Shown: piece after piece, positions 3,014 through 33,652 of the stretch
How positions within the stretch are numbered: the stretch's first letter is position 1
Layout of the letters: each line of letters starts with the position of its first letter
NCBI GenBank assembly: GCA_001774945.1
Contig: MFBL01000058.1
Coordinates: 1-34,370 of the forward strand
Direction of reading: 5' to 3'
From: Candidatus Curtissbacteria bacterium RIFCSPHIGHO2_12_FULL_41_17
Lineage (GTDB): Bacteria; Patescibacteriota; Microgenomatia; Curtissbacterales; GWA2-41-24
Length of the DNA stretch: 34,370 bases
The notes under the pieces: model-generated
Database searches by the model: none
The model's input: the letters and a program-made list of their open reading frames with translations, nothing else
Told to the model about the DNA's origin: nothing
Translations under genes and position numbers: made by a program

Positions 3014-3292
3014 ATGATTGAGAGAGGGTTTGAACTTTTAAGAAAACTTCCAGCAAAGGCCGAAGCGGTTATTGGGGCAGTTGGAACAACCGCTTACGGA
3101 GTAACTGCGGCTGCTCCGGCTGAAGTCCAAGATGTTTACGGAGAAGTTCCCATAAGCGGGTGGTTGATAAACATATTGTCAGCAGCCGATTTAAGAATAG
3201 CGGCAGGAGCTTTAGTAATTGTTTTTGGGGCTGTAGCTTTTGACGGTCTTAAGAGACTGCTGAGTGAGCGGCATGCCGCAGGTGATGAGTAA
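3014..3292 (+). CDS. Small hypothetical membrane protein
   Basis: 92 aa ORF with hydrophobic segments; TATAAT at 3000-3005 just upstream. Confidence 0.5.
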   Translation: MIERGFELLRKLPAKAEAVIGAVGTTAYGVTAAAPAEVQDVYGEVPISGWLINILSAADLRIAAGALVIVFGAVAFDGLKRLLSERHAAGDE

Positions 3293-3294
3293 AA

Positions 3295-3378
3295 TTATCT
3301 TCTGGTCACTTCAATTGTAAACTGACGATCGACTGCCAAATCGGTTGGAATTTTGAGGTTTTGCTTATTTTGGCTTTA
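3295..3378 (-). pseudogene. Remnant of a paralogue of the DUF4012 fusion protein C-terminus
   Basis: Reverse-strand translation NKQNLKIPTDLAVDRQFTIEVTRR* aligns with the C-terminus of the 3664..6555 product, NKQNLTVETDLAADRQFEIEVVKK*. Confidence 0.7.
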
Positions 3379-6607: not shown

Positions 6608-7225
6608 CTAAACTTTAAAGTAAGTTTTAAAACCAATCGTTACAAGGGCAAAAACAAATCCTGCGATTGCCCCAAAGATGATAAGGGCTTTGGGTTGAGG
6701 TTGTGCAGTCACAGGCACAATAGCAGTACCAATCGGTTTAAGCTGAAATTCACTGTCCCCAGTCAAATCAACAATTTTTTGATTGAAGCGATCTTTTGTC
6801 TTGTTCATAGTTGATCTGGCACTGTCTAAATTTGCAGCATAGATTGAAAGCCGAATAAGTTGAGGGGCAATTTTTCTGGCAGATAAGGCAGTGGCTTGGG
6901 TTGTCACTTCATTTTTAAAATCAGGGCTTAGAATAATAGCAAGAGCAGTGTCCGTAAAATTCCTGGCTTTCTCGGTGGCGTAAAAGCCTTCAAAACGATA
7001 GACAGCATCTTGCGCTTCTTTGGTGGAAGCAATAGATTCCCCCGTTCTTTCGGCCGGGGTTCTTTCTTCTTCACTCACGCTCATAATAAAAAACAGCTGT
7101 TCATAGCGGGGACCTTTGTTGATTTTTGAGACAAAAACGAGGGCCAAAGCTATCCCTAAAACTGTAAAAAGGGCAACAAGATATGCGTTTTTTTTAAGTA
7201 TTTTGATGTATTCTGCAAGTTCCAT
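6608..7225 (-). CDS. Wzz-like polysaccharide chain-length determinant protein
   Basis: MELAEYIKILKKNAYLVALFTVLGIALALVF N-term TM, second TM near the C-terminus, polysaccharide gene context. Confidence 0.75.
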   Translation of the reverse strand: MELAEYIKILKKNAYLVALFTVLGIALALVFVSKINKGPRYEQLFFIMSVSEEERTPAERTGESIASTKEAQDAVYRFEGFYATEKARNFTDTALAIILSPDFKNEVTTQATALSARKIAPQLIRLSIYAANLDSARSTMNKTKDRFNQKIVDLTGDSEFQLKPIGTAIVPVTAQPQPKALIIFGAIAGFVFALVTIGFKTYFKV

Positions 7226-14001: not shown

Positions 14002-15126
14002 ATGAAATGTAAAGTCGCCCAAAATGAACTAGCAAAAGCTTTAAAAGCATGCGAAAAATCGTTTCTAGTTCGTGCCAATTTACCGGTTTTATCAAACATT
14101 TTACTTACTATAAGCAAAAATGGCTTGGAAGCACTTTCGACAAACCTGGAAACAGCTACCAGGGTGGCTGTACCCTGTCAAGGGGAAATTGATGGACGTA
14201 TTACCCTTCCGGGAAGGGTTTTTATGGATTTTATCTGGCAGCTCCCGGAGCAAACACTGGCAATTGAATTACTTGGAGAGGAAGTGCTGGTGACAACAAA
14301 GGGTTATAGCGCAAGGTTTGCCTCAATGCCGGCTGAAGAGTTCCCAGCAATTCCCAAAATAGAAAGCGGTAAAAAAATCGAAATTGAAGCAAGTGTTTTT
14401 GCCAAAGCTTGCGCCCAGGTCGTTTTTTGTGCAGCACAGGACGAAGGCAGGCCTACCTTAAACGGGATTCTTTGCGAACTTAATAAACAGAATTTTTCGA
14501 TGGTGGCAACTGACGGCTACCGTTTGGGATTTGTAACGATTCCAATCGCCGGATCAGTAAGTTTAATAAAGATGATAATACCAGCAAAGACACTCGGGGA
14601 AGTGATTAAGCTGGCAAGTGAATTAGAACAGGAAGAAGACGGAAAATCACTGACAATTACAATAGCAGACACTTTAACCCAGGCTAATTTTAAACTGGGC
14701 AATATCGAGTTTACCTCAAGATTAATTGAGGGCGAATTTCCCAATTGGCAAAAAATAATTCCGGCGAATTTTGCCACCAGCGCCAAAATTTTGCGTGAAG
14801 AATTAACAAGAAGGGTAAGAATAGCAGCTGTTTTTGCCAGGGATAGCGGCAATATCGTCAGGCTTAAATTGGAGGGTAAAAAGCTGACAATTTTGGCAAC
14901 CACAGCTCAGGTGGGTTCAAACGAAACGGAAATGGAGGCGGAGATTAGCGGCAAAGGCGGGGAGATTGCTTTCAACTACCGTTACATTTTAGAGGCACTT
15001 TCTGCGATTGATAGTGAAGTTATTAATTTCCAGATGAGCGAGAGCTTAACCCCCGGGAGGATAACACCCGAAGATACCAAAAGCGGCCTCTTCCAGATCA
15101 TTATGCCGGTCCGACTTCAAGGCTGA
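14002..15126 (+). CDS. dnaN: DNA polymerase III subunit beta (sliding clamp)
   Basis: LPVLSNILLTISKNGLEALSTNLE, FSMVATDGYRLGFV, C-terminal IMPVRL. Confidence 0.96.
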   Translation: MKCKVAQNELAKALKACEKSFLVRANLPVLSNILLTISKNGLEALSTNLETATRVAVPCQGEIDGRITLPGRVFMDFIWQLPEQTLAIELLGEEVLVTTKGYSARFASMPAEEFPAIPKIESGKKIEIEASVFAKACAQVVFCAAQDEGRPTLNGILCELNKQNFSMVATDGYRLGFVTIPIAGSVSLIKMIIPAKTLGEVIKLASELEQEEDGKSLTITIADTLTQANFKLGNIEFTSRLIEGEFPNWQKIIPANFATSAKILREELTRRVRIAAVFARDSGNIVRLKLEGKKLTILATTAQVGSNETEMEAEISGKGGEIAFNYRYILEALSAIDSEVINFQMSESLTPGRITPEDTKSGLFQIIMPVRLQG

Positions 15127-15564
15127 CATTTGACAATTGACCATTAACATTTAACATATGCGCAAGTTCCGCTTTAGAAAATTTAAAGTTTACCAAGACG
15201 CCATCAGGTTTCGAATGCGCATTAAGGCTTTAACGAATAAGTATTTCCCAAAAGACGAGAAGTATTTAATTATAGATCAAATCATTAGGGCAGCAAACTC
15301 AATTGTTCTGGCAATTGCTGAGGGCGCGGATCGATCAACTGACAAAGACTTTGCTTTATTTCTCAATCGTGCCCACACCTCTTTAAACGAGGTTGTTGCT
15401 TGTTTAGATATTGCCCTTGCCGAGAAATTTATAAGCCTGCGGGTTTACTTGGAGTATGTTGCCGAAGCGGAGAATTTGGCAAACCAGATAACCGCATTTA
15501 GAAGAAAATTATTAATAAGCCCTTCTAAGTAGTATTTTTGTCAATTGTCACCTGTCAAATGTCA
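15124..15564 (+). mobile_element. Putative four-helix-bundle element 1 (ORF flanked by inverted repeats)
   Basis: Left arm TGACATTTGACA (15124-15135) plus ATTGAC; right arm TGTCAAATGTCA (15553-15564) preceded by GTCAATTGTCA (15540-15550); 4HB ORF lies between. Confidence 0.5.
15158..15532 (+). CDS. Four-helix-bundle protein (23S rRNA-intervening-sequence protein / S23 family)
   Basis: KFKVYQDAIRFRMRIKALTNKYFPKDEKYLIIDQIIRAANSIVLAIAEGADRSTDKDFALFLNRAHTSLNEVVACLDIALAEKFI. Confidence 0.85.
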   Translation: MRKFRFRKFKVYQDAIRFRMRIKALTNKYFPKDEKYLIIDQIIRAANSIVLAIAEGADRSTDKDFALFLNRAHTSLNEVVACLDIALAEKFISLRVYLEYVAEAENLANQITAFRRKLLISPSK

Positions 15565-15583
15565 ATTGTATACTACTGTGGGA

Positions 15584-15886
15584 ATGTTTAACTCCATTGG
15601 TGATTTAATTCGCACAATACCCGTACGTTCACGCTCTCCACGGGCAATACTTGCCCTTCAGGTAAGAAATGCCGCTTTGGAATCATTGGCTTTGGTTTGC
15701 AGTGATTTACCAAAAGAAATAATAGAGGCGATCAAGCCCTCTGTTTTTAAAGGCGGAGTGCTGACAATAACTGCTCCTCAAATGGTGACAGGTGAGCTTC
15801 AGATGCGCTCTGAGGGGCTGATAAAGGAAATAAATAAGGTGTTGGGGAAAAGAATTGTTACGCGCTTAAGGTTTAGGGTTGGTTAA
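15584..15886 (+). CDS. DciA/DUF721 family protein (probable replicative helicase-loading factor); start placed after the element 1 right arm
   Basis: MFNSIGDLIRTI...LALVCSDLPKEIIEAIKPSVFKGGVLTITAPQMVTGELQMRSEGLIKEINKVLGKRIVTRLRFRVG; position after dnaN. Confidence 0.65.
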   Translation: MFNSIGDLIRTIPVRSRSPRAILALQVRNAALESLALVCSDLPKEIIEAIKPSVFKGGVLTITAPQMVTGELQMRSEGLIKEINKVLGKRIVTRLRFRVG

Positions 15887-26565: not shown

Positions 26566-26580
26566 TCTAATAAGTTGTAT

Positions 26581-27076
26581 CGGTTACGGTAACGATGCCC
26601 GTTTCGTTTGTCGGTTACGTGGTAAGTCTTTTGAACTTACTCCAAGCGATACTTAATTTGTAAAGCTGTCTTCCGGATTTATCGTAAATATCAACGAGTT
26701 GATCAATAATTTTCTTGTCTATGTTATATAGATCGCGAGCTTGCTCGAGGCTAACAATCGTCTCATTGCACTCGCCCATGGCATCGTCAAGGTACTTCTG
26801 AAAACCAGCCCTCTGATGCCGTTTAGCATAACCTTCTGCTATAAGCCTTGGAATTGCCTTTGCGGATCTTGCGAGTTGATCGTGAAGATCAAACTTCTCA
26901 CTGTTTGGTAGCTTGGGTAATACTTCTTTATAAACTATGATCATTGCTTTATAAGTATTTTGGTAGACTTCAAGATCTCTAAAGCTTTTTATAATAGTTT
27001 TGTTCCCTGAGCTGTTCATAATTCAGTACCCCTTAACGTTACCCCTAAACGATACGGGCCTCGTAACCGATTAACG
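26581..27076 (-). mobile_element. Putative four-helix-bundle element 2 (ORF flanked by inverted repeats)
   Basis: Left arm 26581-26620 and right arm 27037-27076 are imperfect inverted repeats (CGGTTACG...GCCCGTTTCGTTT / GCCCGTATCGTTT); the ORF stop codon lies in the arm. Confidence 0.6.
26615..27019 (-). CDS. Four-helix-bundle protein (S23 family)
   Basis: FRDLEVYQNTYKAMIIVYKEVLPKLPNSEKFDLHDQLARSAKAIPRLIAEGYAKRHQRAGFQKYLDDAMGECNETIVSLEQARDL. Confidence 0.9.
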   Translation of the reverse strand: MNSSGNKTIIKSFRDLEVYQNTYKAMIIVYKEVLPKLPNSEKFDLHDQLARSAKAIPRLIAEGYAKRHQRAGFQKYLDDAMGECNETIVSLEQARDLYNIDKKIIDQLVDIYDKSGRQLYKLSIAWSKFKRLTT

Positions 27077-27165
27077 CTAAACTAATCAAATTATAAGCGA
27101 AATATAAGGAACTTGTTACCCAGATATCAAGCGAAGCTGGAAGCACTTGTGTAGGATTTGGGGCT

Positions 27166-32960: not shown

Positions 32961-33425
32961 CTACCGCGTAAAATCTTCCAGAATTATCGTTTTAATCTCT
33001 TTAACCTGGTGCCATCTGCGGTCGTTGCCGATGATTGCTTTTGCGCCGGATTCGATGGCTGTTGCAATATGAATAGCGTCCGGGGTTCGCAAGTTATACT
33101 TAGCGCGAATTTTGGCTGCTTCGGTGGCGATTTGTTCGTCAGTAGCAAAGAGAGAAAAATTGGGTAGAGCTTTTATTAAGGTTTTATAGGCGAGAGCTAA
33201 TTGGTGACGACCCAGCCTGTAGGGTTTAATAAGAATTTCAGTGATGATCATGGTTGAACCGCTGGCTTGAATATTACCATTTGGTAAAAGTTCTTTAAAA
33301 ATAATTCTGGTGAGCTCTAAATATTTCCGGTTTTTTTCAATATGGTAAATGAAGCAGGAGCTATCAAGAGAAACATTTTTGGATTTTTTAAGAGTTTGTT
33401 TGAAGTTTTTTAATCGCGGTCCCAC
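32961..33425 (-). CDS. PIN-domain protein (VapC-like toxin)
   Basis: VSLDSSCFIYHIE, MIITEILIKPY, RTPDAIHIATAIESGAKAIIGNDRRW. Confidence 0.88.
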   Translation of the reverse strand: MGPRLKNFKQTLKKSKNVSLDSSCFIYHIEKNRKYLELTRIIFKELLPNGNIQASGSTMIITEILIKPYRLGRHQLALAYKTLIKALPNFSLFATDEQIATEAAKIRAKYNLRTPDAIHIATAIESGAKAIIGNDRRWHQVKEIKTIILEDFTR

Positions 33426-33652
33426 GAGTTTCTTTCTTCTTCTAAGTATTTTTCGCCTTTACCACCCCAGATCTCTTTACCTAGGCCTTCCAGTAGCTGT
33501 CCGGCTTGTTTGGGATCTGCGACGATTACACCAAGGCCGTTTTCGTACAGAATAGTTGCTTTTGAGCCTACTTTAATGCCAATTGCCTCCCTCGCTTTTT
33601 TGGGAATGACTATTTGGGCTTTTTTACCGATAGTGATAGTAACTATTTGCAT
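33410..33652 (-). CDS. AbrB/SpoVT-family antitoxin-like DNA-binding protein
   Basis: IGKKAQIVIPKKAREAIGIKVGSKATILYENG; overlaps the downstream PIN gene. Confidence 0.88.
   Translation of the reverse strand: MQIVTITIGKKAQIVIPKKAREAIGIKVGSKATILYENGLGVIVADPKQAGQLLEGLGKEIWGGKGEKYLEEERNSWDRD

Follow-up and report, generated by a model that had tools for sequence, protein, structure and literature searches.

The dnaN-dciA locus

The window, by which we mean the whole analysed stretch of 34,370 nucleotides, is contig C58 of an 836-kb genome from Ca. Curtissbacteria, referred to below as the family. On its forward strand, dnaN (14002..15126; TIGR00663, 2.7e-82) is followed by a left arm (15124..15157), a 4HB gene encoding 124 amino acids (15158..15532; PF05635, 8.5e-26; TIGR02436, 7.8e-23), a right arm (15537..15569) and dciA (15587..15886; PF05258, 1.9e-5), which has orthologues in 12 other genomes of the family. 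The start of dciA is most likely the ATG at 15587, 18 nt beyond the right arm. The two arms are inverted tandem arrays of a 7-nt word, WTTGACA. The left arm reads TGACA-TTTGACA-ATTGACC-ATTAACA-TTTAACA-T and abuts the 4HB start codon; the right arm, TTTGTCAATTGTCACCTGTCAAATGTCAATTGT, begins a few bases 3' of the 4HB stop and reads ATTGACA-TTTGACA-GGTGACA-ATTGACA as its reverse complement.

A sequence-only reading of this stretch had placed inverted arms around a 4HB ORF between dnaN and dciA, and these are real: 15124-15149 and 15539-15564 form a 26-nt pair that is 85% complementary, with a spacing of 389 nt. The local alignment score of the arm pair is 18, a value that no shuffle out of 5000 equalled; of 4839 windows of the same geometry across the 34 kb, 5 reached it, overlapping windows on the element itself included. 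The inversion therefore stands, while the extent of the arms had to be refined, as both are heptamer arrays that run to 15157 on the left and over 15537-15569 on the right. It had also been proposed that the element supplies the dnaN stop codon. The TGA at 15124-15126 is indeed the opening triplet of the left arm, but dnaN still ends in its conserved C-terminal RLQ(G), so the position of the stop codon within the arm is incidental. No Rfam family was matched at the locus. At the dnaN 3' ends of L030, L031, L033, L034 and L036 a hairpin element lies downstream, and the final codons and the bases that directly follow the stop make up a short palindrome (e.g. CGACTTCAAGTTTGAAGTCG), possibly a target or a terminator hairpin.

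A second element, on the reverse strand of the window (26570-27086), consists of a 134-residue 4HB gene (26615..27019; PF05635, 3.7e-21), an arm downstream of it (26570..26609) and an arm upstream (27047..27086), the two arms pairing with a score of 19. Its protein is 26% identical to that of the first element. The plan is the same and the word is unrelated, in agreement with the original description of two units sharing one architecture with dissimilar arms. The genome as a whole has 10 PF05635 matches.

The 4HB protein

PF05635 is a widespread family for which we know of no function. The sole ORF in the window element belongs to it, scoring above the curated cut-offs of both PF05635 (90.7 bits vs 33.8) and TIGR02436 (80.8 vs 24). 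Its AlphaFold (AF2) model has four helices with a mean pLDDT of 93.3, which gives a four-helix bundle fold. The closest structures are 2GSC (TM 0.85), a homopentameric ring, and 2RLD; the DGR protein Avd (4DWL, TM 0.74) is more remote. Neither a catalytic domain nor a transposase was found encoded in the 4HB elements.

Inverted arms at 4HB genes

For the surveys, each gene had its 150-bp upstream flank aligned with its reverse-complemented downstream flank, and a score of at least 14 was counted as inverted arms. This threshold was set on the family genomes and then kept fixed for the other families of the class and for a non-CPR set. In the family genomes 38 of 51 4HB genes reached it; the rate was 5 of 201 for control genes and 3.1% when 4HB flanks were mispaired. 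The corresponding counts were 41/63 against 6/182 in the other families of the class, and 49/81 against 7/113 outside CPR, a set mainly of Bacteroidota, with members of other phyla, and biased towards Bacteroidota because a single protein was used as the query. The control genes (2-6% with inverted arms) were taken from sequence stretches chosen around 4HB genes. When the three sets are pooled and compared with intergenic-matched controls, that is, genes with at least 60 bp of intergenic sequence on each side, the proportions are 128/195 and 5/96 (odds ratio 35, p=2e-25). About one third of the 4HB genes fall below the threshold, and direct repeats are not enriched at 4HB flanks.

Among lags 4-12, lag 7 is the only one clearly enriched in the 4HB flanks, and this holds for all three sets. 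Arrays with lag 7 number 58 in 362 kb; the other lags from 4 to 13 give 0-8 each, and shuffles give none. It is common for a heptamer array to lack a 4HB gene. The suggestion that inverted repeats accompany 4HB genes as a property of the protein family is thus borne out. Neither a 4HB gene in all relatives at dnaN-dciA with non-conserved flanks nor an inverted-repeat frequency like that around random genes, the two outcomes named beforehand as contrary to this suggestion, was observed.

Gain, loss and inversion

Presence or absence at dnaN-dciA had been singled out by the sequence-only reading as informative, and occupancy of the spacer does vary among the 13 relatives compared. One 4HB lineage (A) is found in the window's own genome (G000) and in G010, with 72% identity and a frameshift in the G010 copy. 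Another (B) is found in G012 and G002, whose copies are 67% identical to each other and 37-45% identical to lineage A; the two lineages have a word in common at this site. The spacer of G011 holds arms only, and those of G006 and G013 hold half-arrays. In G003, G004 and G014 (ATTCTAA-like) and in G005 (ACGACTAA-like) the occupants are hairpins of other words, and the spacer is empty in G008 and G009. Since G000 and G012 are sisters in the dnaN tree (96/90) and carry lineages A and B respectively, the occupants have been exchanged. Words of the TTGACA/TTAACA type are present in seven of the spacers, so the arms can outlast a given 4HB gene at this site. A hairpin element that has no 4HB gene, measures about 110 bp and carries arms of ATTCTAA / TTTAGGA heptamers recurs in several copies in Curtissbacteria (L098:672-778 and 3189-3316, and the dnaN-dciA spacers of L031, L033 and L034).

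Two elements of G030 and G050 are missing from their sister species G065, with no arms left behind; these are complete genomes of one genus. One of the two sites is intergenic and the other is in the loop of 16S rRNA helix 6, where 16S sequence lies on both flanks of the element in G050 and G030 and the helix is normal in G065. G055 is a third genome with a 4HB element inside 16S. The 16S elements of these three CPR genomes have heptamer arms (L155:2925-3410, L161 and L164:1833-4002), the L155 and L161 elements being in the helix 6 loop. Away from dnaN-dciA, the nearest relatives of the window 4HB protein (40-45% identity) include two 16S elements with TTAAC-type arms, which ties the window element to rRNA intervening sequences. 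No clear target-site duplication was seen at the junctions inspected, and no near-identical copies were seen at two places of one genome. Two Cyclobacteriaceae sequences, L266 (2868-3008) and L284, are about 88-91% identical in this region and differ by 140 bp just 3' of a 4HB gene; the differing stretch contains a small heptamer array with AATATAAT repeats at its bounds, and fast turnover or target duplication is a possible cause.

Changes of orientation were found in a mac-type operon of Algoriphagus. Between the ATPase and permease genes, the 4HB gene is forward in four species and reversed in six, and other species have 4HB-less hairpins of other words there (GAAGACC, CGGATGT, AATTGAA). 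The reversed copy of A. oliviformis nests in the forward clade (99/95), and therefore at least two orientation changes have occurred at this one site. The words of the 4HB-less hairpins recur on 4HB elements next door. The 4HB lineages of this genus include ones with GGAAGTW, GAAGACC and GATGTCG words, and in cultured species a single operon carries elements of two or more words, so that the role proposed below for the 4HB protein could be examined at the bench.

Word and protein lineage

Arm similarity was set against protein identity in 114 elements, excluding every pair in which a neighbouring gene within 3 kb was related. Among these non-syntenic pairs the word is common to 93% at protein identities of at least 70%, 65% at 60-70%, 47% at 55-60%, 14% at 50-55% and 4% below 45%. 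At identities of 60% or more the permutation p-value of word sharing is 2e-4, and matches in the wrong orientation are far rarer. One lineage, with AGTATNN heptamers, is seen again at unrelated loci in many genera.

Hitchhiking of neutral flanks does not account for the word sharing. In 4HB pairs of at least 50% identity the fourfold-degenerate third positions are 33-34% identical, i.e. saturated, while arms that are shared agree at 79-80% of positions over 31-36 nt (in pairs selected for sharing arms). The protein is accordingly under purifying selection and the arms are constrained. The word differs between elements and is inherited together with the protein. In a general test of word sharing within genomes, a genome's 4HB elements and its 4HB-less arrays gave only a weak signal (p=0.036), and for this reason mobilisation in trans is not claimed. 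The heptamer arrays, the tracking of protein lineage by the word, the arms without a 4HB gene and the elements in 16S rRNA had no part in the sequence-only reading.

Proposed explanation and alternatives

The gene and its arms make up a unit whose word is heritable, and this unit comes, goes and turns round. We propose, with a probability of roughly 0.6, that it is a mobile genetic element of about 450 bp in which inverted arrays of a 7-base word, specific to the lineage, enclose a 4HB gene. The gene would move together with its arms into intergenic sites and into rRNA hairpin loops, and could be lost with the arms staying behind. We infer that the 4HB protein, probably a ring-shaped multimer, binds the heptamers and synapses both ends for mobilisation; the ring of five four-helix bundles in a Xanthomonas crystal structure (PMC4990558) would suit a repeat array. 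Cutting and joining of the DNA may fall to a nuclease or recombinase, supplied by the host or acting in trans, or to an unrecognised activity of the 4HB protein. Reverse transcription is unlikely, with no PF00078 match in four family genomes that have 8-10 4HB matches each. An rRNA intervening sequence would be one form of the 4HB element.

The alternative that survives best, although we consider it unlikely, is an element acting at the RNA level, whose arms are kept for pairing in the transcript so that RNase III cuts the insert out of host RNAs as in the 23S rRNA intervening sequence (IVS), the protein being incidental or RNA-binding. RNase III does excise the Coxiella IVS (PMC4990558), some elements are located in 16S rRNA, and the arms pair in the window RNA (z=-3.0). 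However, mismatches between arms show no bias towards G-U pairing on the sense strand (58 vs 65; 147 vs 131), on which ground selection for an RNA stem was rejected, and many of them are transversions. Nor would pairing by itself hold the word to the protein lineage at loci that are unrelated. The arms may nevertheless also have a role at the RNA level beside mobility of the DNA element, and such a role would allow insertions in transcribed regions to be tolerated.

It is also improbable that the heptamer hairpins are a separate repeat family, made by slippage or recombination, into which 4HB genes were inserted as passengers. Such a history would fit the abundance of 4HB-less arrays and the arms-only and half-array states at dnaN-dciA, but the empty sites of G065 are without arms and the word follows the protein lineage. 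The same coupling would not be expected if the 4HB protein were cargo and a Y1 (IS200/REP-RAYT) transposase recognised the arms in trans as terminal sequences, a reading to which we give slightly less credence still. Of the 15 family genomes 13 have Y1_Tnp, and the short hairpin elements look like REP-type repeats, but G005 (88% complete), with its 8 4HB matches, gave none to Y1_Tnp. The -35 consensus is TTGACA, and the region contains 6 sigma-70-like matches where 1.6 are expected. Even with the translational role proposed by MacGregor for TAACTGA heptamers (PMC4679880), it is very improbable that the arms act as local signals, for a promoter or for translation, because the words of other elements are not -35-like and neither the inverted downstream arm nor the pattern of gain and loss is explained.

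Comparison with known systems

Intervening sequences in rRNA have been known for decades. Those encoding S23p/23S_rRNA_IVP resemble the present elements in protein family, size and ends able to pair. The window element likewise has an S23p ORF between complementary ends, but it and most of the surveyed elements are located outside rRNA genes. The 428-nt IVS of Coxiella 23S rRNA, which is cut by RNase III, also has tandem heptamers, with three copies of GACAGAT just upstream of the S23p ORF (PMC4990558), and IVP genes have been found in 16S and 23S insertions of CPR (PMC11270868). Three of the present elements are likewise in 16S rRNA. Heptamer arms at both ends, the coupling of word and protein, and intergenic gain, loss and orientation change are not described in these two papers.

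Insertion sequences and MITEs are alike in having inverted ends tied to the lineage of the encoded protein, and in leaving derivatives that correspond to arms without a 4HB gene. The window element has terminal inverted repeats and encodes no transposase; 4HB elements in general lack a transposase domain, their ends are degenerate heptamer arrays, and the inspected junctions show no clear target duplication. The fold is shared with DGR Avd / bAvd (PF22296), but the bAvd hits of relatives are weak and below the cut-off. No reverse transcriptase (PF00078) was matched in the window's own genome (87% complete) or in several 4HB-rich relatives, and the DGR explanation was rejected. The TAACTGA repeats of Beggiatoaceae are similarly intergenic 7-nt tandem repeats near start codons with a patchy distribution; they differ in having a single word in direct repeats, with one exception, and S23 is not mentioned in the text (PMC4679880).

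Among the open-access PMC papers searched, we found no account of heptamer arms at both 4HB ends, of word-protein coupling or of 4HB elements moving outside rRNA, and the novelty of the heptamer-armed elements is provisional to this extent. Under the proposed explanation PF05635 would have a candidate role, that of recognising heptamers in the service of mobility. The intervening sequences of rRNA would belong with a genome-wide element, and heptamer repeats so far held to be regulatory or unexplained would have a possible origin. In its widest form the proposal would be one of bacteria-wide transposable elements of about 0.45 kb, whose sole protein, a non-enzymatic-looking 4HB ring, recognises the tandem heptamers of either end. 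The word would co-diversify with the protein as terminal repeats do with a transposase, and rRNA IVS and many unexplained intergenic heptamer repeats would be the rRNA-inserted and gene-less forms. We hold this generalisation tentatively, at somewhat below even odds.

Other observations

Prepilin-like ORFs in L096 (6918-7490) and L073 start with, or sit between, heptamer arrays whose translation contributes to the leader (PDTRYQIPDTRYQIPDTK in L096); arrays are thus present in coding sequence as well. Elsewhere in the window, a Wzz-like gene (6608-7225) has REP-like inverted repeats (GGAACCCTTCGGCAAACTCAGGGTTCC) on both flanks, and at 32961-33652 a MazE-type antitoxin (PF04014) adjoins an ORF resembling a PIN-domain toxin.
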